From: Tillus elongatus
Taxonomy: Eukaryota; Arthropoda; Insecta; Coleoptera; Cleridae
Length of the DNA stretch: 64,000 nucleotides
Direction of reading: 5' to 3'
NCBI GenBank assembly: GCA_964006375.1
Contig: OZ023264.1
Location: forward strand, 11,728,225-11,792,224
Both the position numbers and the translations under genes were made by a program. This document shows, one piece after another, positions 1 to 60,956 of the stretch. Position 1 is the first letter of the stretch, and each line of letters opens with the position of its first letter. The notes beneath the pieces were generated by a model. That model did no database searches. It was not told the origin of the DNA and worked only from the letters and a program-made list of their open reading frames with translations.

Positions 1-205
1 ATTTGGAGCTGTCGTGACAACATACTACCTAAGATGGCGACACTGTCGTACATCTCACAATGTTCTAGGAGGCTGGCTACCATAGCCATATTACTTTATA
101 GGTGTGTTCTCGCTTTAATTAGTATATCGTCTGATGAGCTCTAATTAGAGCGAAACCGGTCTGCGGTTCTAATTATAGTGAGAATACGTCTAGGCTTACA
201 TGGAA
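1..205 (+). repeat. Decayed relative of the 307-bp retrozyme unit
   Basis: This stretch aligns by eye, with many substitutions, to the reverse complement of the 307-bp tandem unit at 51.9-53.2 kb. Shared blocks include the segment reading 'GTGACAACA', the segment around 'CTATCGTATAGCC' (here degraded), and the end block with 'GAGCGAAACCGGTCT' followed by 'CGGTTCTAATT'. It is cut by the window edge and no second unit follows. It is read as an old, diverged monomer or array end of the same family. Confidence 0.7.
116..175 (+). ncRNA. Hammerhead ribozyme motif, stem I decayed
   Basis: The core CTGATGA is followed by a perfect 5-bp stem II (GCTCT/AGAGC, loop AATT), then GAA, then the self-complementary stem III ACCGGT and a C, which gives a GUC cleavage triplet. 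The outer stem I is retained (TAATTAG pairs with CTAATTA). The inner stem I next to the core has lost one base relative to the array copies and pairs poorly. It probably cleaves weakly or not at all. Confidence 0.6.
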
Positions 206-3292: not shown

Positions 3293-3480
3293 CTTTTTTT
3301 ATCTCCTTGCACTCTTTAAATATTGTTGACAAAAAGTTGTTACACTTGGATTATGTCCAACAAAGATTGCCTTGTTGCTTTCAATGCCTTATAGTAAGCA
3401 TTTCCTTCCTTCAACTCTTTTAGCATATTTTTATTGATAGTTTTATCACTGTGTCTTGTCTGTGAATTTTTTTTTCTATA

Positions 3481-5395
3481 TTAACGTTTCATAGGATTCT
3501 CTCTCAAAAAAGAACCAATCCTCGCAAAAAATCATCTCGTATCCATAGAAAATACGGTCTCCCGAAAATCCGTAAGCTTATTCGTATTCCTCGTATTCCT
3601 CTTCGCCATATTGTAAGTGCTCACCGTTCACCCACACAAAAATTTGCAAAACATCTAGTCAAAAGTCTCCAGCCATTAGTAGAAACCACTACATCCTATG
3701 TCAAAAACTCCACCAATTTCATTGACCTTCTGCAAAACAACACCATTTTTCAAAACGGCATTCTAGTTAGCTTTGATATAGTTTCCTTATTCGCTAATAT
3801 ACCTCTATCTGAAACCCTTGACATTCTTAAAAATAAACACAATATTTCACACGATACGTTAGCTCTTCTAGAACACTGCACATCTAAAACTTATTTCCTT
3901 TTTCGAAACAAATCTTAGAAACAAGTTCGAGGTGCTCCCATGAGTTCATCACTCTCTCCTGCATTGGCTAACATTTTCATGGAAAACTTCGAGACACGAA
4001 CACATCCCAACTTAAACCAACCTGCTAGTTAAGATACGTTGACGACATTTTCGCGGTCTCGCCACACGGTAAAGAATCTCTAGACGAATTCCTTTCTTAC
4101 CAAAATAACATCAACCCCCAAATCCAGTTCACCATGGAAATAGAAAATAATTTTTCTTTGCCTTTCTTAGATGTAATCATCACTAAAAACCTAGTTAGAT
4201 GACTTTCTTACACTGTGTACCGAAAACCAACACACTAATCGTTATCTTAACGCCCAATCTCACCATTACCCATCGCAACTAGATTTCGTGGTTCGAACAT
4301 TAGTAACACAATCCCTCAGACTGACGGACAACAAAAATAAACAGACAGAATTAAGCTTTTTGAGATAGACATTGCTAGAAAACGGATGCGACAACAATCA
4401 CATACTACGAAACATTAGAAACGCACAACAACAAACCACTACACCACAACAATAACCGACAGAGTCAGATACACAACAACACACAGCGTTTTTACCATAC
4501 ATTTAAGGGATCACCGACAAAATCAGCTGAATTTTTAGAACCCATAATATCAAACCATATTCACAACAGAGCAAAAACTGTCAAATCTGATAAAAACTCC
4601 CAAGGATACGACTCCAAACGAATCTCCCGGAGTTTACGAAATTCCTTGTTTCGACTGTAGGACAAACAAATAGACGCATCCACAATAGAATATATGAGCA
4701 CACCCTCGCAGTTAGAAAATCCGACCCCTCGTCGGAGCTGGCCATGCATCATATTCATACAAGACAGAAAATGGGCTTCTATAATGCCAAAACAATAGCC
4801 CTAGTTTGCAATTTCAAAACTAGTATTATCCGCGAAGCGATCGATATCGAAAAACGTCCGGATTGTTTAAATAAGAGAGATGATGGTATTCGTCTTCCGA
4901 TTACTTGGAAACCTATTATATCTTTATTACAAACACACAAAAAGACAGTAAAGTCAATAGACGATTTTATTTCCCCATTACCTAACTCAGCAAATACCTG
5001 CAATCCTCTTAATCCTCCAAGTGTAGTGACGAAAGCTGATTCAATTGACCGTGACCCGACTCATTACACTGATAACGAAGCAGGTAGACGAAATGGTACA
5101 TACAAGACTTGCAACGAACTGCCAGATCTCTCTTAGGCCTAGGGTTGAACACACTGAGACCTTAGAGACGATCTCCGGCGAGATTTGGGGAGTAGGCAGA
5201 TTGAGGCCCCGTAAGTAAGCTAGAACAACCCAACCCACCTTGGTCCACCGCTTTAAGGTGGATTTTTTTAAAGATTGAGGCCTTAGAGTTCATCTCCTTA
5301 CATATTTTATTTACCTCTTGAAAATTGCTCCAAAACAGGAGCCGAAACGTCGAGTTTTAATAAATTCTGGACGCGGTTCAACCTGAGAGCCAAGT
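3481..5395 (+). pseudogene. Degenerate Penelope-like element (RT plus GIY-YIG remnants)
   Basis: Conceptual translation across several stops and frameshifts shows Penelope-type reverse transcriptase signatures: 'SFDIVSLFANIPL' near 3770, 'GAPMSSSLSPALANIFME' near 3935 and the catalytic 'RYVDDIFAV' near 4035. These are followed by 'LPFLDVIITK' and 'LLENGCDNNHILRNIRNA'. From about 4630, remnants of a GIY-YIG endonuclease appear ('GVYEIPCFDC' in one frame, 'GQTNRRIHNRIYEHTLAVRKSDPSSELAMHH' type sequence in another). The last readable block, 4744-5136, is open for 130 codons. The 3' tail carries the 'GGAGCCGAAACGTCGAG' terminus typical of PLE ends and then meets a TA array at 5430. In PLEs the RT and GIY-YIG domains form one protein used for target-primed insertion. 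This copy is dead. Confidence 0.85.
5314..5354 (+). ncRNA. Hammerhead-like motif in PLE terminus
   Basis: Stem I CTC/GAG, core TTGAAAA in place of CTGANGA, stem II GCTCC/GGAGC, GAA, minimal stem III AC/GT and C (GUC cleavage triplet). PLEs are known to carry type I hammerheads with such tiny stem III. Here the two core positions 3 and 8 are both changed (U3, A8), so activity is uncertain. The same variant is present in the two PLE ends at 55.0-55.5 kb. Confidence 0.5.
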
Positions 5396-5428
5396 ATGTC
5401 TCATATTAAAGACCGCGGAAATCTTTCG

Positions 5429-6133
<705 letters not shown>

Positions 6134-10364: not shown

Positions 10365-10720
10365 TGCTCGTCATTCTTGTGATTTATGAGTAAAGCTTTA
10401 TTATGTTCTAAGAGGGATATTATAGTGTATGGGCCTGTATAGGGGTTTTTGTGCTTCTTGTCAAATCCAGGGGGTATCTTTTTATATACTGTTTGGCCCT
10501 CTTTAAATGGCTGATTAACTTCGACGTTAGTTCTAGTTCTGAGGAGCATTTTTTCTTTCGATTTTTCTATCCGATCTAATACGATATCATAAACTATTTT
10601 CATAAAATGTTTGTGTTTTTGGTTATATTCTTGAGTGAGTGTAACTTCGGGATCAAAGTTGAAGATTTCTGGGATGTATCCGAATATTAGCTCAAAAGGT
10701 GGTTTGAGAGTTTGAGTGAA
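10301..10720 (-). pseudogene. pol: pol 3' end (integrase C-terminal part), shifted frame
   Basis: This continues the integrase in another frame after a one-base-type shift near 10710-10730. The last 100 codons, 10301-10603, are open and carry basic sequence with 'QTVYKKIPPG' and 'NPYTGPYTIISLL', which matches the C-terminal DNA-binding region of gypsy integrases. It overlaps the start of the env frame. The shift separates it from the catalytic domain, so this pol is defective. Confidence 0.85.
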
Positions 10721-12614: not shown

Positions 12615-12628
12615 TCCGTGTAGAACAT

Positions 12629-12630
<2 letters not shown>

Positions 12631-12687
<57 letters not shown>
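12631..12687. repeat. (TA)n array inside the errantivirus RT
   Basis: About 57 bp of TA, with short ATAATATTATA edges, lies inside the reverse transcriptase frame. It separates the fingers/palm portion from the YMDD portion. Confidence 0.97.
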
Positions 12688-12693
<6 letters not shown>

Positions 12694-13865: not shown

Positions 13866-13893
13866 TGACATAAATTGAGACTGTTTATTTCTA

Positions 13894-15192: not shown

Positions 15193-15239
15193 ATATTCAC
15201 ATACATAAGACAAAGGAACAGAGAAAATATAGGAGAGCA

Positions 15240-15248
15240 ACTTACAGT
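15240..15248 (-). promoter_or_regulatory. Candidate 5' splice site for env RNA
   Basis: Minus strand ACTGTAAGT in the leader between primer site and gag matches a splice donor. With the pyrimidine-rich CTTTCAG acceptor at about 10330-10336 it would remove gag-pol, as known for env RNAs of errantiviruses. This is inferred from position and motif only. Confidence 0.45.
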
Positions 15249-15339
15249 AATAGTAGGAACCAGATGACCATTTGTTCTTCTTAAAAAACCAAGGAACCAA
15301 TATTCTTTTGATGCCTTAGGTTGCTGGGAGATCCGTCAC

Positions 15340-28467: not shown

Positions 28468-29480
28468 GATTAACGTATACAATTTTTTTCTCGTATCTTG
28501 TATAATAACAATGGTATTAAGCTTTACCGTAGAAATGCGTCACCCTGTTTATAGGTAAACAGATAAAAACTTACACTAAACCCGGATTGAATTCTAGTGG
28601 GCCTAGCTTGCACTCATTTGAAGAAATCTTTTTGAAATTAAAAAGTCGCGGTCTCCTCAATAACCATTTTTTTTGTATCAAAATTAGCTAAAAATTATAG
28701 ATTGTTGAACCATAATATTAACTAAAACTACTGCCAAAGCATCAGAGAAAGGATCTATTTGAAATGAATTTTCTGGAAATATTCTAGTATAATGAAGGAC
28801 AATGACGGTTGAAGCTGAAACTTAAGGGTTTGCAGCACACTTTTTTTGCCACAGTTTCTTTTCATAACCCGTATTTGTTTCAGGTTACTTGCCTAAATGT
28901 TGCCAATTTTGACGTTTCAAATCGCGACTTTGGCGTTTTGAGCAAAACCGCAAATTTTTTTTCTTTAAATTCCTATAATTTTTTGCCTTTAAACTTACAG
29001 ACCTAAATTTTGGTACGTCGTCTTTATAATACAAACATGCGTACCAAATTTAGTTGCCATTACTTTGTTATTTCCGGAGACATAATTTTTTTCATAAAGA
29101 AAACACAAAGTTTTCTGAAAACACCTGGTCCGATTTTTCTCGATAGCGAACTTATCCAAGCCACTTTGTAAAAACTGGAACCTGTGATGAGCACTAATAA
29201 GTACACTTGGAGAACCCAAATCACCACAACACATATTTAAGAGACCTTACGATCGTTTCGTTGACCATGTCAACATCTTCAGAGAATTTTTCTTCCTCTG
29301 AAGATGTTAACATGGTCAAAGAATCGGTCGTAAGGTCTCTGAAATATGTGTTGTGGTAATTTGGGTTCTCCAAGCCACTTGCAAAAGGACGGTACTTACC
29401 AAATGTAACCAAAATCCGGCTGTTAATTCTTTGAGTTATTTGAAGTTTCATCAAGCTAGATAACGTCATAGTGGTCAATC
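28468..29480 (-). repeat. Segment C plus R1 right arm, inverted
   Basis: 28468-28560 is segment C ('TTACCGTAGAAATGCGTCACCCTG' type edge). 28640-29480 carries the R1 arm in the same orientation as 15676-16262 and is interrupted at 29167-29369 by a hairpin insertion. Confidence 0.6.
29167..29369. mobile_element. Hairpin insertion with 11-bp target duplication
   Basis: The R1 sequence 'CCAAGCCACTT' is present on both sides (29156-29166 and 29370-29380). The roughly 203-bp insert contains a near-perfect inverted repeat, 29209-29369, whose arms run from 'GGAGAACCCAAAT' through 'TAAGAGACCTTACGA' to a loop near 29290 ('GAGAATTTTTCTTC'). No coding capacity. The element class is unknown. Confidence 0.6.

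Positions 29481-34983: not shown

Positions 34984-35061
<78 letters not shown>
34984..35061. repeat. (TA)n array right of the mariner
   Basis: About 78 bp; the right half of the array that the mariner interrupts. Confidence 0.97.
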
Positions 35062-35064
<3 letters not shown>

Positions 35065-36010
35065 ACCAATAATTAAAAAAATAATGAGCCGATTTTGATG
35101 ACATTTGGTACGTGCCTTCCTTTTGTAAGTGGCTTGGACAAGCTTAGCCAGGAAAATGAGAGCAGCTTATCCGGGAAGATTTTGGGCTTTCTTTCGGAAA
35201 ATTTTTGTATCTCCGAAAATAACAGAGTTATGACAACCACTATCTCAAACTTACCCTATATACCAAAATTCAGATCTATAAGTTTAAAGAAAAAAGTTAT
35301 AGGCATTAAAAAAAAATGGGTGCCACTGGTGATCAGAGGAAAGCACCAGAACAAAATATTTTGTGTAACTAGCAAAACCAATTGAATATTACATACAACA
35401 GTTAAGTTTTCTTGACGCAAAAAGGTCAAGAAGTAGCAGAAAAAATATTTGAAAATTTTATAAAGTCGCGATTTGAAACGTCAAAATGTGCAATTTTCAG
35501 ACAACAAAACTGAAACAAATACGGATTATATAGAAAAAGTGTCGTAATAAGTGTATTTTACAAAGCTTTAAGTTTCAGCTTTAACCATAATTGTCATTCA
35601 TTTTACTAAAATATTTTCGGACAATCTATTTCACATAGACCCTCTTTCTGATGCTTTGGCACTAGCTTCAGCTATAGAGTTTATGACTTAATAGTCTATA
35701 TTTTAGCAAAATTCGTTCATGAGAAGACCGCGACTTATGAATTTTAAAAAGATTTCTTCAAATGAGCGCGAACTAGAACCCCTAAAATCCATATACGGGG
35801 TCAGTTTCAGTTTTTGTCTGGTTACACATATACAGGATGACGCATTTCTACGGTAAAGCTAAATATATCCGTTATTATACAAGATATGAGAAAAATTTAT
35901 ATACGTTATTTATAGGTCAATCGAGGTATTTTGACAATCACAAGTGGCTCTTAAGTCGCTGGTGATACACACTTTATTTTTTTTAATAGAACGCCTTATG
36001 TTATTGCATT
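35062..36010 (+). repeat. R1 right arm and segment C
   Basis: 35090-35760 follows the R1 order of blocks and includes the unoccupied version of the retrozyme target (35389-35400, TTACATACAACA). From 35825 segment C begins with 'ATACAGGATGACGCATTTC'. Confidence 0.7.
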
Positions 36011-37321: not shown

Positions 37322-37777
37322 GTTTTTGTGACGGTAATAGTGTTATTTACTCAAAAAATTGTGGGAAAGCCGAGCTTTGGGAAAAGTTTATTCCATTCTC
37401 AAGGCTACAACATGGAAAGAAAAGTTTACAATTTACATAGGAAAAATATAAAAGTTTAAAATACTTACCTATAACGCGAGTTTTACTATGACTAATTATG
37501 CAATAACAAACATGAAAAAACCTTGGTGTAAATTTGACTGAAGTCGAAAAGTGCCAAACTGACATATAAGCTAACTATTGTTTATTTGAATTTGTTTTTT
37601 GTTTTTGTCTAGGAAATATAAATAGAGGTAGTGATTTCTAAAATTATTATCTTTCTTTAAGTTTATTAAATTGTCGTTCAAAGTAATTTCAAATTCTTCT
37701 AAACACATTCTTTTATTACTTAAGGTTTCACAGTGTAAAATAGAAACATTACTAAAATTTATACATTGGCCAAACAA
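37317..37777 (-). pseudogene. Penelope-like element 3' fragment
   Basis: The minus-strand frame at 37571-37777 reads 'INFSNVSILHCETLSNKRMCLEEFEI', the C-terminal half of a PLE GIY-YIG endonuclease. The remainder towards 37317 is a PLE-type terminus ('CCTTGAGAATGGAATAAAC' on the minus strand) shared with 57292-57435. It is arranged head-to-head with 37778-37958. Confidence 0.65.
37366..37404 (-). ncRNA. Hammerhead-like motif, degraded
   Basis: On the minus strand: stem I AGCC/GGCT, core TTGAGAA, stem II GGAA/TTCC, then CAAA in place of GAAA, minimal stem III AG/CT and C. The GAAA change makes cleavage unlikely. Confidence 0.35.
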
Positions 37778-37955
37778 GCAGAGTCCTTAAAGATAGATTA
37801 ACCCAGCACAAAAGTGACATACGTTTACAAAAAAAAAAGGGCTCTGTCTGAACATAATCTCGACACTGGACAGAATATTAATTTTAGTAATGTTTCTATT
37901 TTACACTCTGAAACCTTAAGTAATAAAAGAATGTGTTTAGAAGAATTTAAAATTA

Positions 37956-37958
<3 letters not shown>
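37778..37958 (+). pseudogene. Penelope-like GIY-YIG fragment
   Basis: The plus frame around 37814-37950 gives 'ALSEHNLDTGQNINFSNVSIL' type sequence and 'SETLSNKRMCLEEFKI', the same endonuclease region as the minus-strand copy next to it. An upstream 'RLTQHKSDIRLQ' block, the catalytic-region arm of GIY-YIG PLE enzymes, is also readable. It is cut by the TA array at 37959. Confidence 0.7.

Positions 37959-38038
<80 letters not shown>
37959..38038. repeat. (AT)n microsatellite
   Basis: About 80 bp joining a PLE fragment to an R1 right arm. Confidence 0.97.
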
Positions 38039-38041
<3 letters not shown>

Positions 38042-39330
38042 ACACACAGATAACTCAAAAAATAATGGGCCGGTTTTGATGAAACTTGGTATGAACCTTG
38101 GTACTTGTAAGTGGCTTGGATAAGTTTATTAGCTAGGAAAATCGGACCAGTTTTTCCGGGATAATTTTGGGTTTTCTTGCGGAAAATTTTTGTACCTCCG
38201 AAAATAACAGAGCTATGACAACCAAATTTGACGTATACATTTCCACTATCAAACTTACCCTACACACCAAAACTCAGATCTCTAACTTAAAATAAAACAA
38301 GTTATAGGCATTTAAAGAGAGAAAAAAAGGGTGCCACTGGTGATCAGAGGAAATCACAAGAACAAAATATTTTGTGTGACTAACAAAACCAATTGGATAT
38401 TACATACGACGATTAAGTTTTCTTGGAGCAAAAGTGTCAAGAAGTAGCAGAAAAAATATTTTGAAAATTTTATAATTTTCTCTTTAAAACGTCAAAGTCG
38501 CGATTTAAAACGTCAATTGGCAATCTTCAGACCACAAAATTGAAGCAAATACGGAATATGTCGAAAAAATATCTTAATAAGTGTGTTTCACAAAGCCTTA
38601 AGTTTCAGCTTCAACCATCACTGTCCTTCATTTTACTAAAATGTTTTCGGAAAATCCATTTCAATAGACCCTCTTTCTGATGCTTCGGCAGTAGTTTCCG
38701 CTATAGAGTTTATTCAGTTTATATAGTTTATATATTTTATATAGTTTATATAGTTTTATAGTTTATATAGTTTTATAGTTTATATAGTTTTATAGTTTAT
38801 ATAGTTTTATAGTTTATATAGTTTTATAGTTTATATAGTTTAATAGTCTATATTTTATCAAATTTTCGTAGAAAAAATTCTTTGTGAAGAAGATCGCGAC
38901 TTATGAATTTTAAAAAGATTTCTTCAAATGACGAACATACACATATATAAGGCGACGCATTTCTACGGTAAAGCTCAATATATCCGTTACTATACAAGAT
39001 ATGAGGAAAAAGTATGTACGTTAATTATAGGGTGTCTCGAGCTGTATCTTATAAACCTATTTTGACAATTACAGGTAGCCCATAAATCGTTGGTGGTACA
39101 CGCTTTATTTTTTTTATAAAACACCCCTTATTTAATTACATTTTTGTATTTTTCATCAAATTCTAATACATGTCTGCAAGGAAAAAAATGATATCGTTCA
39201 TCGTTTTTGAGTTATTTCAATTGTTTTGCAACTTTTAACATTTTTGGCACATATTTCAAACGCATATTACAAATTGTGATATGGCGTTTTTGTCAATAGA
39301 TCGGGGCCCCTTGGAAATGACGCATTCAGA
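38039..39330 (+). repeat. R1 right arm and extended segment C
   Basis: 38040-38700 follows R1; a diverged version of the retrozyme target site is near 38398-38420. 38709-38850 is a minisatellite. From about 38945, segment C and its extension run to 39310. Confidence 0.65.
38709..38850. repeat. Minisatellite, about 22-bp unit
   Basis: Repeats of 'TATAGTTTTATAGTTTATA' type units with small variations, about six copies. Confidence 0.85.
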
Positions 39331-41156: not shown

Positions 41157-41951
41157 ATCGATAACTCAAAAAATAATGGGCCGATTTTGATTAAATTTCG
41201 TGAATACCTTCCTTTTGCAAATGGCTTGGATAAGTTCGTTAGCCAGGACAATCGGTCCAGGTTTTCCCGGAAAATTGTGTTTTCTTTCAAAAAAAATTTA
41301 TATCTCCGGAATTAACAAAGTAAGGGCAACCAAATTTGGTACGCGGGTTTACATCCTTATAGGTAAGCTACATACCAAATTTAGCCCTGTAGGTCAAAAG
41401 ACAAAAAAGTTATAGGCATTTAAAGAAAAATAAATTGGGGTTTTTCAGAAAACGTCAAAGTTGCGATTTAAACGTCAAAATTGGCAACATTTAGGAAAAG
41501 AACTTGAATCTAATACGGGCTATGGAAATAAAGTGTCTCAAGAAGAATGTTTTACAAACCCTGAAGTCTTAGTTTCAGCCGTCATTGTCCTTCATTTTAA
41601 TAAAATGTTTCCAGAAAATTCATTTCAAATAGACCCTTTCTCTGACGCTTGGCAGTAGTCTTAGCTATCGAGTTTATCGTTTAATGGTATATAATTTTTG
41701 TAGAATTTTCGTAAAAAAAAACAATAAAGTACAATATATATTATTATACAAGATATGAAAAAAAATTGTATATATTAATTATAGGGTGTCTTGAGCTACA
41801 TCTTAAAAAATTATTTCTACAATCACAGGGTGGCCCATAAGTCATTGGTGATACAAATTTTCTTTTTTTTTTTTAATCAAACACGCCTTATGTTATTGCA
41901 TTTTTGCATTTTCCATCGAAATATAATGCATGTTTGTAAGAAAAACAATTC
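41154..41951 (+). repeat. R1 right arm and inverted segment C
   Basis: 41155-41690 is the R1 right arm; 41720-41930 is inverted segment C, as at 40075-40290. Confidence 0.65.
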
Positions 41952-42267
41952 TGGACGCAGTAAGTGCGTTATGGTAGCGAATTTTGATCAAATGCTTAAT
42001 ATTTGAATAGCTCAATTTGCTATTAACCTATAAGGTTGACCAAGAAACGAATTTTTTCGGGAACACTTTAAGTTTACTTTCGGAAATTTTTGTACATTTT
42101 CAAACAATAAAGTTATTTTGATGAAACATGGCACATTGTTTTTCCTATATAGGTTATACTGGTAACCAAATTTGATGCCTGCTTTCTTAAAAAACACATT
42201 ATTGCTATTAAAAAATAGTTTTATGAAAATTCGCTACCATAATGCAGTTGCTGCGTTCCGACCTTTT
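41952..42267. repeat. MITE, GGACGCAGCAAGTGCG family
   Basis: Begins 'TCTGGACGCAGTAAGTGCG' and ends 'AATGCAGTTGCTGCGTTCCGA'-like sequence; near-duplicate of 40301-40617, which suggests a shared segmental origin of both blocks. Confidence 0.7.
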
Positions 42268-42970
42268 TTAATTACAATGATGTATCTCCAAAATTAAAAA
42301 AAAAATTGTTCGAAAATTGAATAGTCTTAATATTTTTGTACAAACAACTTGCAGACTAAACTATATGTTTAGAGGCGCGTTTCAAAAATAAGCGACCTCG
42401 TAAGTTGATACTCTCTTTACGCCCTAGCCTCATATTTTCTTTCTGCGGTCCTGGAAAAAGCAACAAAGCATAACCCTTTTCCTAATATAATACACCCGTT
42501 ATTATTTGTCACGGTTTGCGGTTTTGGTAAACCGAAAGGCCGGAAACAGTATCACTCACTGAAATGCGTCAGGCGCCACCTCCTGCCGAACTTGCCGTTC
42601 TATTGTTATAAATGTTCTCATTCGCAAGTCTTAACAAAACGCCGGCAATTAGTTCTGTTGCTAATTATTGTCAAGAAAATAGTTGCAAGTTTCCATTAAA
42701 CTGTTAAAAGCAGAAACTAGACGCCGGTCTATTATAAATTCATTCATCAACATCTCCGGAGTAGAGCGGAGAATGCGAGCAAAAACCATGGCGTGCTTCA
42801 AATTGCATTGTAAAAGCTATGTTAAACTAAGAAAGTTATAATTAATCTGGTAATAGGTCCGGCCATCAAATAAGTTAGACAGGTTAATGGACTTTGGGTA
42901 TCTCGTTTTTTTGTGCTGTAGCAAAAAATATCAAGACTTAATATGCGCATACATTATTGGGCTATGAAAG
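42268..42970. other. No gene recognised
   Basis: Left flank of the gypsy element; no supported ORF or known repeat. Confidence 0.45.
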
Positions 42971-42974
42971 ATAT

Positions 42975-43712
42975 TGTTGCGTTTTCTCCGGGTTCTGGAT
43001 AAGTGAGACTTTAAATTTTAACAAAACAACTTTATTTACACTCTAAATATGGATACAATAAAATTTCTAGAATGTCTCTCTCACAAAACACTTAATTTAC
43101 TGTCTACAATTACTACTCTCAACAAAAGTCACTAATCTGGTACTACAGTCACTACTCTCTTAACACTTTACACTGCTTCAAGTCACTACCACATTCTCTT
43201 CCTGAACTGAACTCGGGCTGGCTTGCTTTCGCTTTTATATACTCGCCGTACCTTCCCCTCCTTTCTAGAGCATTCCATTCCAGAACGTTCCAGAACCTTC
43301 TTTTACTAGAAGGTTCTGTGAATGCAGATCGGTCCCGTGTGTATACAGGGGGATGTATATACAGGGTGATCCAAATGTGGTCACCACTCCTATGTTACAC
43401 AAGAGGTGTTTCTCGAACTATAAGATCTCTCTGCGTATACAGGGTGTAAGGGTTTCTCTGCGTATACAGGGTGTATATACAGGGTGTTCGGAATGTGCAG
43501 ACCTCAGTTATCCGTTCCGACGGGGTACAAGTTGGTAACTTCGTTATTTCTGGTCCTAGAGGGTTGAGACTTCGCCTGAGGGGGGTCACCCCAGGCACCC
43601 CCAGGGGGGTGGGGAGGCGGTGTTGCCAGATTGTGCAAAAATTCCCAGATGTTGGGGAAATTCTGGAGATGTGGCAACACCGCACCTACGTCTATTGAAG
43701 TGCTTTGTAACA
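42975..43712 (-). repeat. Gypsy 3' LTR
   Basis: 738 bp. On the minus strand it has a TATATAAAAGC box at 43231-43241 and an AATAAA signal near 43026. It carries five TACAGGG motifs between 43340 and 43485, most preceded by GTA or TAT. Confidence 0.94.
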
Positions 43713-43750: not shown

Positions 43751-46700
43751 TTACCGGCCGCCAACTTGGAGTTCGTTGCCCCGATAGGGACTCAACCTCT
43801 CTATGTGAACAACTTTGGGTTTAGTTCTTGGAGACAGCTGGATTCTGTAGACTAGGTCGTTAATTTTCTTAGTCACCAAGTATGGCCCTTCCCATGGTTT
43901 CTGAAGTTTGGGACTGAGGCCCTTTCTCCTTGTTGGTTGGTACAGCCACACTGCATCACCTTCCTTGAATGTATGGGGTGTTGCTCTGCGATCCAAGCGC
44001 ATCTTCATCCGGTCACTGCTTAAGAGGAGCCTATCTCTGACACATCTGTGTATAGTGCGCAGTTTTCCTTCTAGGTCGGCGACATACTCAGGTAACGTAG
44101 CTAGGTCCGCTATGTCCTCGTTCGGTGGTGGTCTCGTCATGTCGATTGGTAACCGCATCTCTCTGCCGGTCAACATCATGGATGGAGTGTAACCGGTAGA
44201 TTCATGCTGAGAGCTTCTGTAAGCTAGGAGGAACAGAGGTATCAGCTTGTCCCAGGTTCTCTGATTCTCGTCGACAAACATAGCAAGATACTGATTGATG
44301 GTCCTGTTATGCCGTTCTACCATGCCGTCTGATTGAGGGTGGAGTGGCGTTGTTCTCGTTTTCTTTATGCCTAGCAAGTCCATTAGGCTTTTCCAGACCT
44401 CTGATTCGAAATTCCGGCCCTGGTCGGTGTGAATCTCCAAGGGTACGCCATGCCGTGATATGACATTTTCCATCAGGGCTTCTGCTACGGTCGTTGCCTC
44501 TTGGTTGGGGATCGGCGCAACTTCAGGCCATTTCGAGAAGTAGTCCATCGCCACCATTATGTATCTGTTCCCAGACTCTGTGATGGGAAAAGGTCCTGCG
44601 ATGTCTACGGCAACTCTCTCCCACGGTGTACCTGAGATGTACTGCATCATTTTTCCTCTGGATCGGGTCTTTGGTCCTTTCTTTGAAGCACATTGGTCAC
44701 ACCTTTTGCACCATTCTTCCACGCTTCTTCGGCAGTTTATCCAATAGAAGCGGTCTCTCACTCTGGCAAGAGTCCTGTTGACCCCAAAGTGGCCTCCACT
44801 TCTACTATTGTGTAACTCTTGAAGAACACTGCTTATGCACTCACTTGGCACAACGGTCTGGTATATACAGTCTCTACCATCGGCAGTTTCCCATTTTCGA
44901 GTGATCATGTCATTCTTTAGACACAATGAGTCCCATTGTAGCCAGTAGCCTTTAACCTCCGCCCCAAACCGGGACACATCGTGCCACTCAGGTCTTTTCC
45001 CCTTTTGTAGCCATTCTCTAATATTTTTCAAGTCTGGATCTGTCTTCTGTGCGTCTCTGATGTATTCAAGATTTACGTCTAGATCGGTGTTATTCTCCTG
45101 TCCTGCCACCAGTTGTTTGATCTGATGAGTTACTTTGTCGATCTCTTTGTTCTCTTGTCGCTCGCAAAATTTACATTCATGCACTGAACATGGTCTTCTT
45201 GACAGGCTGTCTGCATTGGCGTGACTTCTTCCTCTTCGATGTTCAATCCGGAAGTCGTAGCTCTGCAGTTTCTCTATCCATCGTGCTATCTGTCCTTCGG
45301 GATTTCTAAAGTTCAGAAGCCATTGCAGAGCAGAGTGATCTGACCTCACGCGGAATGTTCTTCCGTACAGGAAGCTGTGGAAATGTTCGATGGATCTTAC
45401 AACTGCCAGCAGTTCTTTCCGGGTTACACAGTAATTTCTTTCTGCTTTTCCGAACGTTTTGCTGAAGTAGCCTATCACAACTTCTTCTCCGGCTTGGAGC
45501 TGTGAGAGTACTGCCCCAATGCCATACTGGGAAGCATCGGTGTCCAGTATAAACAGTCCTTCGTCCTGAGGATAAGCCAGCACAGGAGCAGTGAGAAGAC
45601 GATGTTTGAGCTCTCTAAAAGACTCTTGGCAATCTGGTGACCAGATGAACTCGGCCTTATTTTCAGTCAGGCTATGCAGAGGTTTCGCAATGCTGCTGAA
45701 GTACTTTACAAAGCGTCGGTAGTAGCTGCAAAGTCCCAGAAAACTTCTGACCTCATGTTTGTTCCTCGGCACAGGCCAGTCTCTTACTGCCTTTATTTTC
45801 TCTGGATCAGTTTCTATCCCTTTCTCAGAAACGACATGTCCGAGGAAATTCACTTTCTTCTGGAAGAGGACGCATTTCTTGGGATTGAGTTGCAGATTGG
45901 CACCTCTCAGCCTGGAGAAAACCTGCTTTAGATTCGACAGGTGTTCATCGAAAGTCCCTCCAATCACCATGACATCGTCGAGATACACCAGGCATGTTTC
46001 CCATGTAAGTCCTCTCAGCACTAACTCCATTAGTCGCTCGAAGGTGGCAGGAGCATTACATAAGCCGAATGGCATGACCTTGAATTGGTACAACCCATTC
46101 CCGGTTGAAAAAGCAGTCTTCTCCTTATCGTCTTTATGGAGTTCTACTTGCCAGTAGCCACTTTTCAGGTCTAATGTAGAGAACCACTTTGATCCGGCCA
46201 AAGTGTTCAAAGTGTCGTCGATCCGGGGCAGGGGATAACTGTCTTTCTTGGTGACATCATTCAGCTTCCTATAGTCCACGCAAAATCTCATAGTGCCGTC
46301 TTTCTTGGTGACCAAAACTACTGGGGACGACCAAGGACTATTAGACTCCTCAATCACACCATCTTCCAGCATTTCGTTAACCATCGCCTTGATTTCTGAT
46401 TGCTTGGCAAAAGGCAGTCTTCTCGGCGGCTGTCTAATTGGTCTTGCGTCGCCAGTATTAATTCTGTGTTGCACTAGACTCGTACGACCTGTGATTTTAT
46501 CTTGAGCGAAAATATCGGCCTCCTCCAATACGAACTTCAGGGCCATTTCCATCTCCATGTCGTTCAATTGGCCCCAAGAATTCTTGAACCGCTCTACCAT
46601 TTCTACTGGCAGTCTTCTGTCTAATGCCGTGGGTGTCACCTTTCTTGATAACGTCACTCGGTCAATGGGCTCGCAAGTGGCGATAACCTCACCTTTCTTC

Positions 46701-48697
46701 AATGTGACCCTGTTAGTTTGCACGTTAGCCACTCTTATGGGTATTGTCCTCTTCGGGTCTACTAAGCATCGTGCGACGAGGGCACCATCAGGTCTATCTT
46801 TTAGGGGCTCCGCTATGAGAGCAGACATACCATCAAGTTTCTTCTCTAGCCTGGCTCTGACAATCTTCTCACTGTTACCAGGAATCCGTGTATCCTCGTC
46901 GACAATAAGTCTCACCCTGAGATTAGCTTCGCCTGCTGTTGGAGATAAATACAACTCTTCGTTGCCGATTCTCAAAATCTTATTTTGGAAGTCTACTGAC
47001 AGGACATCGAAATCTTCCATTAAATCCAGGCCCAGAATAAATTCGTCGACGATTTCTGCGACGACAGCCCTTACCTGTAGCTCAGTACTGCCCAGCCTAA
47101 TGAAAACAGTGGCCTCTCCATGCACAGGTATCCTATCTCCTTTTGCCGTCTCCAACACAGGCTGTTTGTTGGTCGTGAGTGCGGACCTGTTTGGCAACAT
47201 GTCTGGACGTACAACGGATCTAGTAGCACCAGTATCGATGGTGAAACTGCATTGTCTTCCGTCTATGCTGCCAGGTATAACGAGGCTCTCGCGGTAGCGT
47301 CGGATAGTGGAGACCCTGACCTTGGGGCCCTGGGTCTCGCATGCCACGTGTCGCCCACCTACACTGGCGTCAGGTCGTTTTCCCTGATGGCGCTCCCTGT
47401 TGGTATATTCTTGTCTTCTGCGAGCCACCTGTTGGGTTTGTAAGCACTGCCTACTTATGTGGCCTTTCCTACCACACTTGTAACATTCTATGTCTGACCA
47501 ACCTGCTTTCGTTTTACGTGCTCCGACCGTTGCAGTGAGCTTGCTTATGGCTTCTTTTATCATTTTCATTTCTTGCCTTAGTTCCGCTGTCGTGTCTGCA
47601 AATTCCTCTATCTCCTTCACCTCGCGCAGCCTGTTGCGGCGAGGTTGAGATGCATTCTTCGCTGCTTCAAATTCCAAGCCATAAATTACGCAGTCCGTAA
47701 GTGTTTTCAACCTTCCGAGCCTTAAAGCTTGTTGCATTTCATTATCAAGTACCCCATCGATGAAGGTCTGGACGGTTATCTGGTTGACAAATTCTTCTGG
47801 GGCTTGGGGATATGCCAGTCGCACAAGTTTCTCCACTTCGGCACTAAATTCTTGCAGCGTCTCATTTGGCTTCTGGACCCTTGACTTTAGTTGTGTCTGG
47901 TAGACCTGGCTCATGTACTTGTTACCATATCTCAAATCTAGGGCCTGTATCACTGTTAAGTAGTTTTGCTGTTTCGACTCCGGGATGTTCTGGAGGATTT
48001 CTAGGGCTTTACCTCGAAGCGAGAGAATTAGAGCAGTGGCTGCCTGTTGTTCGCTCCACCCATTGCTGAGAGCTGCCGCCTCAAACTGCCTCCTGTACAT
48101 GGGCCACGATGTTTCTCCGTCAAAAGTCGGCGGCTTTAGGGTTCCATTAAGCTGCTGCACGGCTGGCATATCTTCTTCCGGACGATTTTGAACTGGAGAC
48201 ATTCCAGTAACTCCTCTTGGCTGAGTTCTATCAGTCTGACCCATCACCTGTTCTGTCAGTTCTTTATGTCTGATGTCTGTGCCTTTCATCATCATCTTTA
48301 TTTGTTCTTTCAATCCTTCAACTTCTTCCCATTGTTTATTCATTTCCTCTGTTACATTTTCTACTTTCCTGTTCACCACTCCTATTGCATTTTCCACATC
48401 TTCTACTTTCTTGTCCACATGTTCTATTTGTTCGTTGATCTGTTCAATTTCTTCTTTTACATCGACTCTCATATTGTGGAACATACTTCGGAGGTCTTCT
48501 TTGTCTTCTTCACGTTGCTTCTTGAGTTCTTCTTTATCTTCTTGTCGTCGTTGTTCGTCTTCTTCGCGGTGCTTCTTGATGTCTTCTTTATCTTCTTGTC
48601 GTCTTCTCTCGTCTTCTTCGCGTTGTCTTTTCAGTAAGTCCATCAACTCTTTGATTTCAGCCATCTTGTCGTAGTCAGTCGATCTAGTGTTTACCAT
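43751..48697 (-). CDS. Gag-Pol polyprotein of Ty3/gypsy element
   Basis: 1648 codons in one frame. Codons 10-145 are a long charged coiled coil with tandem 'REEDE..RQEDKE' repeats. 185-345 resembles the gag capsid region. A CCHC zinc knuckle lies at C405, C408, H413 and C418. The aspartic protease has D488-T-G-A. The reverse transcriptase spans about 760-960, with 'FCVDYRKLND', D842 in 'STLDLKSGY' and YLDD at 905-908. RNase H has D1054, E1095 and D1120. The integrase has H1296, H1303, C1333 and C1336, then D1365, D1425 and E1461 (35 residues between the last two). The C-terminal region has 'GDAVWLYQPTRRKGLSPKL' and no obvious chromodomain. Every catalytic residue checked is present, so this copy may be active. 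The exact gypsy clade was not determined. Confidence 0.96.
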   Translation of the reverse strand: MVNTRSTDYDKMAEIKELMDLLKRQREEDERRRQEDKEDIKKHREEDEQRRQEDKEELKKQREEDKEDLRSMFHNMRVDVKEEIEQINEQIEHVDKKVEDVENAIGVVNRKVENVTEEMNKQWEEVEGLKEQIKMMMKGTDIRHKELTEQVMGQTDRTQPRGVTGMSPVQNRPEEDMPAVQQLNGTLKPPTFDGETSWPMYRRQFEAAALSNGWSEQQAATALILSLRGKALEILQNIPESKQQNYLTVIQALDLRYGNKYMSQVYQTQLKSRVQKPNETLQEFSAEVEKLVRLAYPQAPEEFVNQITVQTFIDGVLDNEMQQALRLGRLKTLTDCVIYGLEFEAAKNASQPRRNRLREVKEIEEFADTTAELRQEMKMIKEAISKLTATVGARKTKAGWSDIECYKCGRKGHISRQCLQTQQVARRRQEYTNRERHQGKRPDASVGGRHVACETQGPKVRVSTIRRYRESLVIPGSIDGRQCSFTIDTGATRSVVRPDMLPNRSALTTNKQPVLETAKGDRIPVHGEATVFIRLGSTELQVRAVVAEIVDEFILGLDLMEDFDVLSVDFQNKILRIGNEELYLSPTAGEANLRVRLIVDEDTRIPGNSEKIVRARLEKKLDGMSALIAEPLKDRPDGALVARCLVDPKRTIPIRVANVQTNRVTLKKGEVIATCEPIDRVTLSRKVTPTALDRRLPVEMVERFKNSWGQLNDMEMEMALKFVLEEADIFAQDKITGRTSLVQHRINTGDARPIRQPPRRLPFAKQSEIKAMVNEMLEDGVIEESNSPWSSPVVLVTKKDGTMRFCVDYRKLNDVTKKDSYPLPRIDDTLNTLAGSKWFSTLDLKSGYWQVELHKDDKEKTAFSTGNGLYQFKVMPFGLCNAPATFERLMELVLRGLTWETCLVYLDDVMVIGGTFDEHLSNLKQVFSRLRGANLQLNPKKCVLFQKKVNFLGHVVSEKGIETDPEKIKAVRDWPVPRNKHEVRSFLGLCSYYRRFVKYFSSIAKPLHSLTENKAEFIWSPDCQESFRELKHRLLTAPVLAYPQDEGLFILDTDASQYGIGAVLSQLQAGEEVVIGYFSKTFGKAERNYCVTRKELLAVVRSIEHFHSFLYGRTFRVRSDHSALQWLLNFRNPEGQIARWIEKLQSYDFRIEHRRGRSHANADSLSRRPCSVHECKFCERQENKEIDKVTHQIKQLVAGQENNTDLDVNLEYIRDAQKTDPDLKNIREWLQKGKRPEWHDVSRFGAEVKGYWLQWDSLCLKNDMITRKWETADGRDCIYQTVVPSECISSVLQELHNSRSGGHFGVNRTLARVRDRFYWINCRRSVEEWCKRCDQCASKKGPKTRSRGKMMQYISGTPWERVAVDIAGPFPITESGNRYIMVAMDYFSKWPEVAPIPNQEATTVAEALMENVISRHGVPLEIHTDQGRNFESEVWKSLMDLLGIKKTRTTPLHPQSDGMVERHNRTINQYLAMFVDENQRTWDKLIPLFLLAYRSSQHESTGYTPSMMLTGREMRLPIDMTRPPPNEDIADLATLPEYVADLEGKLRTIHRCVRDRLLLSSDRMKMRLDRRATPHTFKEGDAVWLYQPTRRKGLSPKLQKPWEGPYLVTKKINDLVYRIQLSPRTKPKVVHIERLSPYRGNELQVGGR

Positions 48698-48757: not shown

Positions 48758-49495
48758 TGTTGCGTTTTCTCCGGGTTCTGGATAAGTGAGACTTTAAATT
48801 TTAACAAAACAACTTTATTTACACTCTAAATATGGATACAATAAAATTTCTAGAATGTCTCTCTCACAAAACACTTAATTTACTGTCTACAATTACTACT
48901 CTCAACAAAAGTCACTAATCTGGTACTACAGTCACTACTCTCTTAACACTTTACACTGCTTCAAGTCACTACCACATTCTCTTCCTGAACTGAACTCGGG
49001 CTGGCTTGCTTTCGCTTTTATATACTCGCCGTACCTTCCCCTCCTTTCTAGAGCATTCCATTCCAGAACGTTCCAGAACCTTCTTTTACTAGAAGGTTCT
49101 GTGAATGCAGATCGGTCCCGTGTGTATACAGGGGGATGTATATACAGGGTGATCCAAATGTGGTCACCACTCCTATGTTACACAAGAGGTGTTTCTCGAA
49201 CTATAAGATCTCTCTGCGTATACAGGGTGTAAGGGTTTCTCTGCGTATACAGGGTGTATATACAGGGTGTTCGGAATGTGCAGACCTCAGTTATCCGTTC
49301 CGACGGGGTACAAGTTGGTAACTTCGTTATTTCTGGTCCTAGAGGGTTGAGACTTCGCCCGAGGGGGGTCACCCCAGGCACCCCCAGGGGGGTGGGGAGG
49401 CGGTGTTGCCAGATTGTGCAAAAATTCCCAGATGTTGGGGAAATTCTGGAGATGTGGCAACACCGCACCTACGTCTATTGAAGTGCTTTGTAACA
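48758..49495 (-). repeat. Gypsy 5' LTR
   Basis: 738 bp and practically identical to the 3' LTR. The TATA-like box lies at about 49014-49024. Transcription would run leftward into the gag-pol ORF. Confidence 0.94.
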
Positions 49496-49857: not shown

Positions 49858-50733
49858 TTTACAAACATTCAAAATGCAAAAACGCAATAAGTAATGTTCA
49901 AAAAATAATTTTATGTATCACCAACGACATATGGGCCACCTTGTGATTGTCAAAATAATTTCATAAGATGGAGCTCCAGACACCCAATAAGTAACATATA
50001 CAGTTTTTTCTCGTATCTTGCATAATAACAATTATATTAAGCTTTATCCTAGAAGTGCGTCACCCGGTATATACATAAACAGAAAGTAAACCCGAATATG
50101 GATTCTAGGGGGGCTGGTTTGCGCTTATTTGAAGAAATCTTTTTAGAATTCAAAAATCGCAGCCTCATTGACGATTTTTTCTACGAAAATTAGCTATAAA
50201 TTAATAACCGTTAAATAAATTTAACTAAAACTACTGCCAAAGCATCAGAGAGGAGGGTCTATTTGAGATGAATTTTCTGGAATTTTTTTTGTAAAATGAA
50301 GGGCAATGATAGTTAAAGCTAAAACTCAAGTGTTTGTAGAACACCCTTTACATAATCTGTATGTCTTTGCTTAAATGTTGCCAATTTTGATGTTTCAAAT
50401 CGCAACTTTGACGTTTTGAGGAAAACCGCAAATTTTTTTCTTCAAATGCCCATAACATTTTTGTCTTTAAACCTACAGCCCTAAATTTTTGCAAATGGTT
50501 TAACTTTTATAATACAAACACGTTTACCAAATTTGGCTGCCCTTACTTTGTTATTTCCGGAGATATAAATTTTTCTCGAAAGAAAACAGAATTTTTTCCG
50601 GGAAAACCTAGGCCAATTTTTCTGGTTAACGAACTTGTCCAAACCACTTACAAAAGGGAGGAACTCAACAAATTTAATAAAAATTGGCCCATTATTTTTT
50701 TGAGTTATCGGTGTGATACACACACACACACAC

Positions 50734-51927: not shown

Positions 51928-51939
51928 TGTTGTATGTAA
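51928..51939. other. Target duplication of the retrozyme insertion, left
   Basis: TGTTGTATGTAA, repeated exactly at 53166-53177. The unoccupied R1 copy at 35389-35400 carries a single instance. Confidence 0.9.
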
Positions 51940-51963
51940 GTAAGACTAGATGCATTCTCGCAA

Positions 51964-52024
51964 CAATTAGAACCGTAGACCGGTTTCGCTCTCATTAGAG
52001 CTCTTCAGTACGGCATACTAATTG
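51964..52024 (-). ncRNA. Type I hammerhead ribozyme, array unit 1
   Basis: Read on the minus strand: distal stem I CAATTAG/CTAATTG, an internal loop (TATG and TT), proximal stem I CCGTA/TACGG, core CTGAAGA, stem II GCTCT/AGAGC with loop AATG, GAA, self-complementary stem III ACC/GGT, and cleavage after GTC. All conserved core bases are present. The loopless 3-bp stem III implies that cleavage works best in tandem (dimeric) transcripts. Confidence 0.92.
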
Positions 52025-52270
52025 CAGCAAAAATGCACCAAAAATAACACGGCTATCGTATAGCCAGTCTTAAAACACTAAGTGAGTAGCGAACGTGTCG
52101 CCACCTAGTTCGGAACCAAGTACTTGTTGTCACGCCCGCTCCAAATAATACAGAGTATTAAAAATAGAGACGGTATACAACTAACTAACAATTTAAAAAA
52201 ATTGTTAGCCCTGGCCCATTTCTACCCCAATATAGGGACAAAGTATGTAAGACTAGATGCATTCTCGCAA

Positions 52271-52331
52271 CAATTAGAACCGTAGACCGGTTTCGCTCTC
52301 ATTAGAGCTCTTCAGTACGGCATACTAATTG
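52271..52331 (-). ncRNA. Type I hammerhead ribozyme, array unit 2
   Basis: Same sequence as the unit 1 ribozyme, 307 bp further on. Cleavage at units 1 and 2 would release a 307-nt RNA. Confidence 0.92.
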
Positions 52332-52577
52332 CAGCAAAAATGCACCAAAAATAACACGGCTATCGTATAGCCAGTCTTAAAACACTAAGTGAGTAGCGAA
52401 CGTGTCGCCACCTAGTTCGGAACCAAGTACTTGTTGTCACGCCCGCTCCAAATAATACAGAGTATTAAAAATAGAGACGGTATACAACTAACTAACAATT
52501 TAAAAAAATTGTTAGCCCTGGCCCATTTCTACCCCAATATAGGGACAAAGTATGTAAGACTAGATGCATTCTCGCAA

Positions 52578-52638
52578 CAATTAGAACCGTAGACCGGTTT
52601 CGCTCTCATTAGAGCTCTTCAGTACGGCATACTAATTG
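52578..52638 (-). ncRNA. Type I hammerhead ribozyme, array unit 3
   Basis: Same sequence as units 1 and 2. Unit 4 (from 52885) keeps only the 3' half of the motif because of the inversion junction near 52930. Confidence 0.92.
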
Positions 52639-52685
52639 CAGCAAAAATGCACCAAAAATAACACGGCTATCGTATAGCCAGTCTT

Positions 52686-53165
52686 AAAACACTAAGTGAG
52701 TAGCGAACGTGTCGCCACCTAGTTCGGAACCAAGTACTTGTTGTCACGCCCGCTCCAAATAATACAGAGTATTAAAAATAGAGACGGTATACAACTAACT
52801 AACAATTTAAAAAAATTGTTAGCCCTGGCCCATTTCTACCCCAATATAGGGACAAAGTATGTAAGACTAGATGCATTCTCGCAACAATTAGAACCGTAGA
52901 CCGGTTTCGCTCTCATTAGAGCTCTTCAGTACGCTCTAATGAGAGCGAAACCGGTCTACGGTTCTAATTGTTGCGAGAATGCATCTAGTCTTACATACTT
53001 TGTCCCTATATTGGGGTAGAAATGGGCCAGGGCTAACAATTTTTTTAAATTGTTAGTTAGTTGTATACCGTCTCTATTTTTAATACTCTGTATTATTTGG
53101 AGCGGGCGTGACAACAAGTACTTGGTTCCGAACTAGGTGGCGACACGTTCGCTACTCACTTAGTG
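52686..53165. repeat. Inverted junction ending the retrozyme array
   Basis: About 235-bp arms (52686-52920 and 52931-53165) are inverted copies of the same unit region, separated by about 10 bases. Confidence 0.85.
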
Positions 53166-53177
53166 TGTTGTATGTAA

Positions 53178-53558: not shown

Positions 53559-54949
<1,391 letters not shown>

Positions 54950-55025
54950 TCAGAAAGATTTCCGCGGTCTTTAATGTGAGACATACTTGGTTCTCGGGTT
55001 TAACCGCGTCCAGAATTTATGGAAA

Positions 55026-55065
55026 CTCGACGTTTCGGCTCCTGTTTTAGAGCCATTTTCAAGAG
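55026..55065 (-). ncRNA. Hammerhead-like motif in PLE terminus
   Basis: Minus strand: stem I CTC/GAG, core TTGAAAA, stem II GGCTC/GAGCC-type, GAA, AC/GT and C. Same U3/A8 variant as at 5314-5354. Confidence 0.5.
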
Positions 55066-55312
55066 GTAAAGGAAATATGTAAGGACACTCTAAGGCCTCA
55101 ATATGCCTACTCCTTAGAGTGATGGACAAAGGTGGGTAAAGGAAATATGTAAGGACACTCTAAGGCCTCAATCTGCCTACTCCTTAGAGTGGTGGACAAA
55201 GGTGGGTAAAGGAAATATGTAAGGACACTCTAAGGCCTCAATCTGCCTACTCCTTAGAGCGGTGGACAAAGGTAGGTAAATGAAATATGTAAGGACACTC
55301 TAAGGCCTCAAC
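55065..55312. repeat. 70-bp tandem repeat, about four units
   Basis: The phrase GGTAAAGGAAATATGT or a close variant starts at 55065, 55135, 55205 and 55275, a constant 70-bp spacing. Confidence 0.93.
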
Positions 55313-55459
55313 AACCCAACCCACCTTTGTCCACCGCTCTAAGGAGTAGGCAGATTGAGGCCTTAGAGTGTCCTCACATATTTCCTTTACCCACCTTGGT
55401 CCATCACTTTAAGGAGTAGGCAGATTGAGGCCTTAGAGTGTCCTTACATATTTCCTTTA

Positions 55460-55500
55460 CCTCTTGAAAATGGCTCCAAAATAGGAGCCGAAACGTCGAG
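55460..55500 (+). ncRNA. Hammerhead-like motif in PLE terminus
   Basis: Plus-strand partner of 55026-55065: core TTGAAAA, stem II GGCTCC/GGAGCC, GAA, AC/GT, C, GAG. Confidence 0.5.
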
Positions 55501-55544
55501 TTTCCATATATTCTGGACGCGGTTTAACCCGAGAACTAAGTATG

Positions 55545-55970
<426 letters not shown>

Positions 55971-59929: not shown

Positions 59930-60108
59930 AGACCTACAGTAAATAACCGCGTACAACCACAACATTTTTATAATGACAAACGTAAACTAGACTTTTTTTG
60001 AGCTTTGGAAGTCAAAAAGCACACACACGACAATAGCTACCTTGTTTTAAACGAGCAAACTGATTTAATGAATTCCCCTTTCTTGGATATTCTTCTTTCT
60101 AATTAATT
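59930..60108 (+). pseudogene. Possible PLE reverse-transcriptase fragment
   Basis: Translation near 60030-60105 gives 'NSYLVLNEQTDLMNSPFLDILLSN', similar in pattern to the PLE block that follows the RT active site ('LPFLDVxxTK'). The preceding 'PQHFYNDKRKLDFF' type sequence is shared with 16.84-16.92 kb. Short and uncertain. Confidence 0.35.
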
Positions 60109-60186
60109 TTTTGATCAAAACATATCATAACATAGCAACAGATCTTTATTTGTAGTTGTCATGATTTCGTACTAATTCAATTTTAA

Positions 60187-60227
60187 TCTGTCTGAGAATG
60201 CTGTCAAGCAGCGAAACTAGTCACAGA
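60187..60227 (+). ncRNA. Hammerhead-like ribozyme motif, left arm
   Basis: Stem I TCTGT/ACAGA (perfect 5 bp), core CTGAGAA (expected CTGANGA), stem II GCTG/CAGC with loop TCAAG, GAA, self-complementary stem III ACTAGT and C (GUC triplet). Only core position 8 departs from consensus. Confidence 0.5.
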
Positions 60228-60571
60228 ATCGTTGAAGAACATCCTAGAACTTCCAGAATTTATAAGGGCCACTTGCTCCAGTTAGCTTACGTGCTGGCTA
60301 CGTCCTTTACCTACAAAAACGAAAACCAACAGTATGTATGTAGTATGGACCAATTTCACCAAGTAAGGGAATCAATGAATACTAATTGTACTATTCATTG
60401 ATTGTTGTTGCCCTTACTTGGTGAAACTTGTCCATACTGCATACAGACTTAGAGAATACTTCTCTAGCTTCACTGTTGGTTTTTAGTGGTGAAGGACGTA
60501 GCCAGCGCGTGAGCTATCTGGAGCAAGTGGCCCTTACGAATTCTGGATGTTCTAGGAGGTTCTTCAACGTT

Positions 60572-60614
60572 TCTGTGACTATAGTTTCGCTGCTTGACAG
60601 CATTCTCAGACAGA
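60572..60614 (-). ncRNA. Hammerhead-like ribozyme motif, right arm
   Basis: Minus-strand counterpart of 60187-60227 with the same stems I and II and core. Stem III here is ACTATAGT, still perfectly self-complementary although two bases longer. Confidence 0.5.
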
Positions 60615-60956
60615 TTAAAATGGAATTAGTACGAAATCATGACAACTATAAATAAAGATCTGTTGCTATGTTATGATATGTTTTGATCAAAAAATTTATC
60701 AAATTGAAAAAAAAAAAAGAAACACAGATGACAGATGAGGCTTTCAAAATGTCTACGTGATGTATGTCAATATTTTACATAAAAATAGAACTGGCCTATA
60801 ATAACTATGATAACAGTTACAACAATAAAATAACTAAACAATAACAGTATAAAAGCGGTCTCTATACAACAAAAATATCGACATACATCAAGTCAAAGAA
60901 AATAAATTTAAGTATTCTTTCAAAAAAGTTGTAATAAGATAATGAGTTGATGTATG

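Follow-up and report, generated by a model that had tools for sequence, protein, structure and literature searches.

The systems closest to the locus reported here are the non-LTR retrozymes of animals and the endonuclease-bearing Penelope retrotransposons. According to the available text of PMC7761336, animal retrozymes have no conserved motif from which the mobilising retrotransposon could be deduced, while the sections of PMC7229834 at hand propose Penelope-like elements on the grounds of shared hammerheads, tandem copies and co-existence. The same sections describe the axolotl hammerhead HHR_Amex1 as one that cuts well only as a dimer. For endonuclease-bearing Penelope, the accessible portion of PMC3846280 describes direct pLTRs with a shorter pLTR lying next to them in inverted orientation, and a tail of 31 bp that may or may not be present. 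The target duplications given there are 9 bp long, with 8 and 10 bp in other cases and none at all in some. In the excerpted results of PMC11167929, an active Penelope-like enzyme of Anolis begins reverse transcription internally, 3' of the hammerhead and at two adjacent sites. It also cuts and extends both target strands, and its insertion in vitro is independent of hammerhead cleavage.

The insertion analysed here lies in a contiguous stretch of 64,000 nucleotides, referred to as the window, whose features are collected in Table 1. It measures 1226 bp (51940-53165) and is flanked by exact 12-bp target duplications. The direct part spans 994 bp, or 3.24 head-to-tail units of 307 bp, and ends at 52933. 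TRF returned a period of 307 with 3.3 copies, and the sole mismatch of the array at that period, position 51939, falls within the target duplication. Each unit is a simple direct repeat lacking any internal domain. Comparison with the reference unit (52243-52549) revealed no mismatch among 687 direct bases and none among 232 inverted bases (0/919 overall). As the RNA sense is the minus strand, the inverted arm lies on the RNA 5' side, i.e. head to head with the direct copies. An earlier reading of this DNA, made from the sequence only, had placed the array and its 307-bp period correctly and had described three identical units. Their identity holds, but that reading had overlooked the incomplete fourth unit as well as the inverted partial copy at 52934-53165. 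The complete agreement among the repeat bases fits one young insertion and lends support to its description there as recent, although gene conversion could equally keep the copies alike.

Table 1. Features of the insertion and of related loci, in window coordinates
Feature	Position	Strand	Remarks
Left target-site duplication TGTTGTATGTAA	51928..51939	.	Identical to 53166-53177; single in paralogue 35389-35400
Direct unit 1	51940..52242	-	303 bp inside insertion; RNA-sense 3' end of insertion = 51940
Direct unit 2 (reference unit)	52243..52549	-	TRF and self-comparison
Direct unit 3, identical	52550..52856	-	TRF and self-comparison
Partial direct unit 4	52857..52933	-	77 bp; terminates within hammerhead
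Head-to-head inverted partial copy	52934..53165	+	232 bp, 0 mismatches; RNA 5' side; arms 10 nt apart
Right target-site duplication TGTTGTATGTAA	53166..53177	.	Alignment with paralogous repeats
Unoccupied target site in paralogous repeat	35389..35400	-	TGTTGTATGTAA once, no insert
Hammerhead 1	51964..52024	-	Rfam and strict descriptor; predicted cut between 51978 and 51977
Hammerhead 2	52271..52331	-	Rfam and strict descriptor
Hammerhead 3	52578..52638	-	Rfam and strict descriptor
Hammerhead 4	52898..52933	-	Core kept; outer stem I missing at fold-back junction
Second, diverged retrozyme copy	1..201	+	About 75% identical; truncated by window start; core 131-155; RNA 3' end about 201
Decayed Penelope-like element	3466..5429	+	RT piece 3466-3918; GIY-YIG-like about 4594-5136; degenerate hammerhead-like motif and tail to 5429
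Small fold-back, minimal-hammerhead-like motif	29168..29369	.	12-bp duplication TCCAAGCCACTT at 29156-29167 and 29370-29381
Fold-back with GIY-YIG fragment	37681..37958		E 0.0024, below cut-off; adjoins AT microsatellite
Fold-back of two Penelope-like 3' ends	54951..55552	.	One arm tailed, one tailless; between AT microsatellites
Fold-back with hammerhead-like motif, non-consensus core	60079..60722		Fold-back and motif inspection

The host DNA of the insertion is itself a repeat, which allowed the target to be inspected in paralogues. Both the exact duplication and the unoccupied site claimed by the sequence-only reading were recovered, the paralogue on the minus strand carrying the target a single time. 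A second paralogous repeat at 38400 (minus strand) is likewise free of insert, its site reading CGTCGTATGTAA with 2 bases different. The alignment comprised 7 repeat copies, 5 of which could not be aligned across the site. The host repeat is dispersed over at least 10 places in the window (e.g. 35040-35873, 38017-38736 and 50034-50718), and several copies extend up to an AT microsatellite. Directly to the right of the insertion is a broken mariner (Mos1-like) transposase at 53703-54786, with a Pfam HTH_48 match below cut-off. The window also contains an intact gypsy-type polyprotein frame of 1648 aa (43751-48697), and the frames on either side of it (43096-43449 and 48879-49232) are identical at 354/354 bases, which suggests young LTRs. 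Further gypsy-type frames, at 8649-15315, include an env-like gene (Pfam Baculo_F).

Each full unit contains a minus-strand hammerhead made up of a stem I of 7 and 5 pairs with an internal loop between them, the core CUGAAGA, a stem II of 5 pairs, GAA, ACCGGU and GUC. A strict descriptor of this arrangement matched the window at 4 positions, all of them in the array and on the minus strand, compared with a mean of 0.02 matches when the window was dinucleotide-shuffled 100 times (1/100 shuffles with any match). The search with Rfam covariance models that the earlier reading had recommended gave RF02275 as the best match to the array, at 30.4 bits (E of 2.7e-5 in a 1.3-kb search and 0.0014 in the whole window). 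This is below the gathering score of 52, and a search of the window at that score found nothing. An exact pattern scan yielded 0 matches in viral contigs and genome contigs and none in plasmids.

The hammerhead is real, as the descriptor matches demonstrate, but calling it textbook was too strong, because stem III is a loopless palindrome. ACCGGU cannot fully form this stem inside one hammerhead; as a single molecule, stem III amounts to one pair with a CCGG loop. Full pairing is possible only between two copies, so cutting would probably proceed by double hammerheads. The minimum-energy fold of the single hammerhead is inactive, and the active fold costs a further 5.3 kcal/mol if stem III is omitted and 11.0 kcal/mol if its one pair is included. 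The double hammerhead form lies 5.7 above the two-strand minimum; since this form is also above its minimum, the energies leave single and double action undecided. The locus adds one more example, probably from an insect, of a hammerhead with a weak stem III, and a monomer circle with such a stem might resist self-cutting. Folded as a 307-nt circle, the unit reaches -106.4 kcal/mol, whereas shuffles average -71.0 (z = -7.7; 0/200 shuffles as low), the antisense circle giving z = -3.1 (100 shuffles). The predicted 307-nt circle is largely rod-like.

Animal retrozymes are taken here as dispersed non-coding elements with units of about 170-400 bp, a type I hammerhead in each unit, a GC content below about 45-50% and a target duplication >4 bp. 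The present locus has 3.24 units of 307 bp with type I hammerheads, a unit GC content of 40.7%, a longest stop-to-stop frame of 58 aa within the insertion, a 12-bp duplication and copies at two sites with different flanks. These features support the reading already offered for the array, and the insertion is best interpreted as a non-autonomous animal non-LTR retrozyme, confirmed to the extent that DNA permits. Because it is non-coding and contains no RT/GIY-YIG ORF, it is not itself a Penelope element. We infer that it would give rise to a 307-nt circular RNA and that it may currently be mobile.

The second copy, which the sequence-only reading did not include, sits at the window start in a flank different from that of the main insertion. 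It scores 27.7 bits against RF02275, and the strict descriptor found no match in it. Across the hammerhead and an extended stem I, 29 of 31 pairs are kept, two of them via changes on both sides, a level reached in 95 of 5000 trials that placed these changes at random. The innermost stem I pair is lost, and copy 2 may thus be inactive. As the copy is cut by the window start, its target duplication is unreadable. The RNA 3' end, however, can be placed in both copies: it lies 38 nt past the ribozyme cut in the main insertion and 40 nt past it in copy 2 (n = 2 insertions). By simple counting, two ends falling within 2 nt of each other on a 307-nt circle correspond to a coincidence of about 5 in 307.

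These observations bear on two accounts in which no retrotransposition would be needed to explain the array. It could be a satellite-like tandem repeat that expanded through unequal exchange or via rolling-circle DNA and in which the hammerhead is a passenger. The units are indeed identical, and hammerhead satellites are described for cave crickets in the available part of PMC2837043. An exact target duplication together with an empty site, a second copy with another flank and nearly the same end, and the preservation of base pairs between the copies all argue against a satellite, which we regard as very improbable. Even less credible is an assembly artefact, in the form of a fold-back read or a collapsed repeat. 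Chimeric long reads are a possible source of inverted repeats with short loops, but here the inverted arm stops exactly at the second copy of the duplication and continues into matching host repeat.

The combination of direct copies with a neighbouring inverted partial one, a short target duplication and a 3' end inside the unit agrees with what has been published on insertions of endonuclease-bearing Penelope. Penelope-like material is present nearby, a feature also absent from the earlier reading. The RT piece at 3466-3918 matched Pfam RVT_1 with an E of 0.042 and showed 34% identity over 95 residues to one weak relative, while comparison with solved structures returned nothing credible. For the piece at about 4594-5136, which we take to be GIY-YIG-like, there was no Pfam match and protein searches were empty. 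The window contains no recognisable intact Penelope gene, and the pieces show weak homology. The 3' end of the element at 3466-5429 recurs twice in the fold-back at 54951-55552, which also contains 70-bp tandem repeats.

Fold-backs with arms of at least 60 nt that are at least 88% complementary, at most 400 nt apart and not microsatellite occur at five loci, a count made after the pattern had been noticed. One of them is the retrozyme, three carry hammerhead-like motifs and the fifth a GIY-YIG fragment; not counted were two pairs with 74-78% complementarity, at 41926-42285 and 2106-2365, and one pair formed by AT microsatellites. The hammerhead-like motifs of the Penelope-like loci are presumably Penelope hammerheads. 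Neither Rfam nor the strict descriptor detected a hammerhead in these loci, and the motifs at 54951-55552 and 60079-60722, among the three present in fold-backs, deviate from the CUGANGA core. The stretch inspected around 60079-60722 contained no flanking duplication of at least 7 bp. Sub-threshold Rfam matches to mir-2363 on both strands of 29156-29381 are probably due to the palindrome.

Measured from the presumed cut, the Penelope-like ends lie at 39 nt on one arm and 84 nt on the other in the small fold-back, at 52-55 and 79 in the large fold-back, and at 78 in the 5.3-kb copy. The retrozyme terminal GTCTTACAT agrees at 8/9 positions with GTCTCACAT, one end of the larger Penelope-like family, a level that 5/307 positions match as well, and at 7/9 with two other ends of that family. 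The terminus of copy 2 agrees with Penelope-like ends at 6-7/9. The small fold-back terminus and the retrozyme terminal motif share 5/9, which is background level (193/307 positions do as well). The sequence named for comparison with the Penelope reverse-transcription start motif is GUCUUACAU. We also looked for a hairpin at the foot of the Penelope-like tail as a parallel to the site on the rod, but the folds were inconsistent and the idea was dropped.

Taken as a whole, the best explanation is an animal retrozyme inserted by a Penelope-like enzyme, which we consider slightly more likely than not and far from secure. The link to Penelope is backed, not proven, by two insertions and by coincidences noticed post hoc, and against it stands the finding that the start site of the right arm is seen at no Penelope-like end. 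The RNA and enzyme steps we infer are as follows. Minus-sense transcripts of the array would undergo hammerhead cleavage, probably in the double form, and the 307-nt monomer would be closed by a host RNA ligase, as suggested by published retrozymes. A Penelope-like reverse transcriptase-endonuclease would cut the target with a 12-nt stagger, and both target 3' ends would be extended on the retrozyme RNA. Synthesis at the left end would start at C38 after the cut and run 3.24 units, that at the right end would start at G209 and run about 0.76 unit, and the two cDNA 3' ends would be joined head to head.

Mobilisation by a LINE, with the inverted piece produced by L1-style twin priming, has to be weighed against this scheme. 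The window has a LINE-type RT frame of 482 aa, which we take to be CR1/Jockey-like. Among the best 120 of its 3011 matches, the closest relatives are 67% identical, and the best named ones come from the bruchid beetles Acanthoscelides (58% over 88%) and Callosobruchus (44-62% over 63-91%), which makes an insect, perhaps a beetle, the likely host. LINEs typically yield target duplications of about the size seen here. They are also named as candidates in the available sections of PMC7229834. The RNA 3' end, however, has neither a poly(A) nor a simple-repeat tail, and the geometry of the arms differs from that of twin priming. Twin priming should leave the first cDNA ending where the second one began on the RNA. 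In the present insertion no more than about 11 nt separates the two cDNA ends, at about bases 273 and 284 after the cut, and base 209 is where the second cDNA begins. On these end positions classic L1 twin priming was rejected for the inverted arm, and we judge a LINE-mobilised retrozyme unlikely.

A more serious alternative retains Penelope-type insertion but has the fold-back arise by snap-back self-priming of one cDNA instead of extension from two ends, as the accessible portion of PMC3846280 proposes for Penelope inverted junctions. The spacing of the arms, 10 nt, fits a short hairpin loop, the junction falls within the palindrome-rich hammerhead, and the gap of the small fold-back is also short (11 nt). 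The turn would be primed by at most one base pair, however, and the two Penelope-like fold-backs with hammerhead-like motifs that were measured start differently on their two arms (tail/no-tail). Nor would snap-back lead one to expect the position at which the inverted arm has its outer end. In the predicted circle G209 pairs with U40, opposite C38 (top pair probability of base 40, 0.64), so that the two arm starts, bases 38 and 209, face each other across one internal loop of the RNA rod. We find snap-back doubtful on these grounds, though it retains appreciable weight.

Extension from two ends can be carried one step further. The retrozyme RNA may mimic the Penelope reverse-transcription start region. 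One internal loop of the rod would then serve as the binding site of the enzyme, and the two staggered target ends would be extended there from opposite strands, at C38 and G209, which would yield the direct copies and the head-to-head inverted one. We put this forward tentatively, as a possibility that falls short of being probable. If it is true, retrozymes would parasitise Penelope elements much as SINEs parasitise LINEs. A complete insertion, with its duplication, empty site, inverted copy and nearly shared end, offers junction evidence on what mobilises animal retrozymes, and such evidence makes the printed Penelope proposal testable in assembled animal genomes. Neither the titles and abstract beginnings of the openly accessible papers listed nor selected passages of PMC11722881 and PMC8490949 contain an account of this junction structure.

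The element shares with metazoan non-LTR retrozymes, as presented in the consulted parts of PMC7229834 and PMC7761336, tandem non-coding AT-rich units of about 300 bp, a type I hammerhead, a target duplication above 4 bp and a predicted stable self-paired circle. In comparison with those descriptions, the head-to-head inverted partial copy and the internal 3' end common to two copies (within 2 nt) are found only here. The weak stem III is an amphibian trait in the available text of PMC7229834, where most invertebrate hammerheads cut efficiently alone. Specifically, a stem III consisting of one base pair and a palindromic tetraloop is shared with HHR_Amex1 of newt and axolotl, whose unit in that text is about 330 bp rather than 307 bp; the likeness is one of description, and the host here is most likely an insect. 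Plant LTR retrozymes, in the accessible portions of PMC4918200 and PMC7761336, are likewise non-autonomous, with tandem hammerheads and circular RNA, and are described with a type III hammerhead, LTRs, a PBS and PPT, and a 4-bp duplication.

With endonuclease-bearing Penelope, as far as the excerpts of PMC3846280 and PMC11167929 describe it, the insertion has in common tandem copies, an adjacent inverted partial copy, a short duplication and an end 3' of the hammerhead. It differs from Penelope as described there in being non-coding and in having a duplication of 12 bp as opposed to 8-10 bp. The retrozyme hammerhead is also a full type I with a stem I internal loop, unlike those of endonuclease-bearing Penelope elements. 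Extension of both target strands is a feature of the Penelope-like enzyme in vitro in the excerpted results of PMC11167929, and it is proposed for the present insertion.
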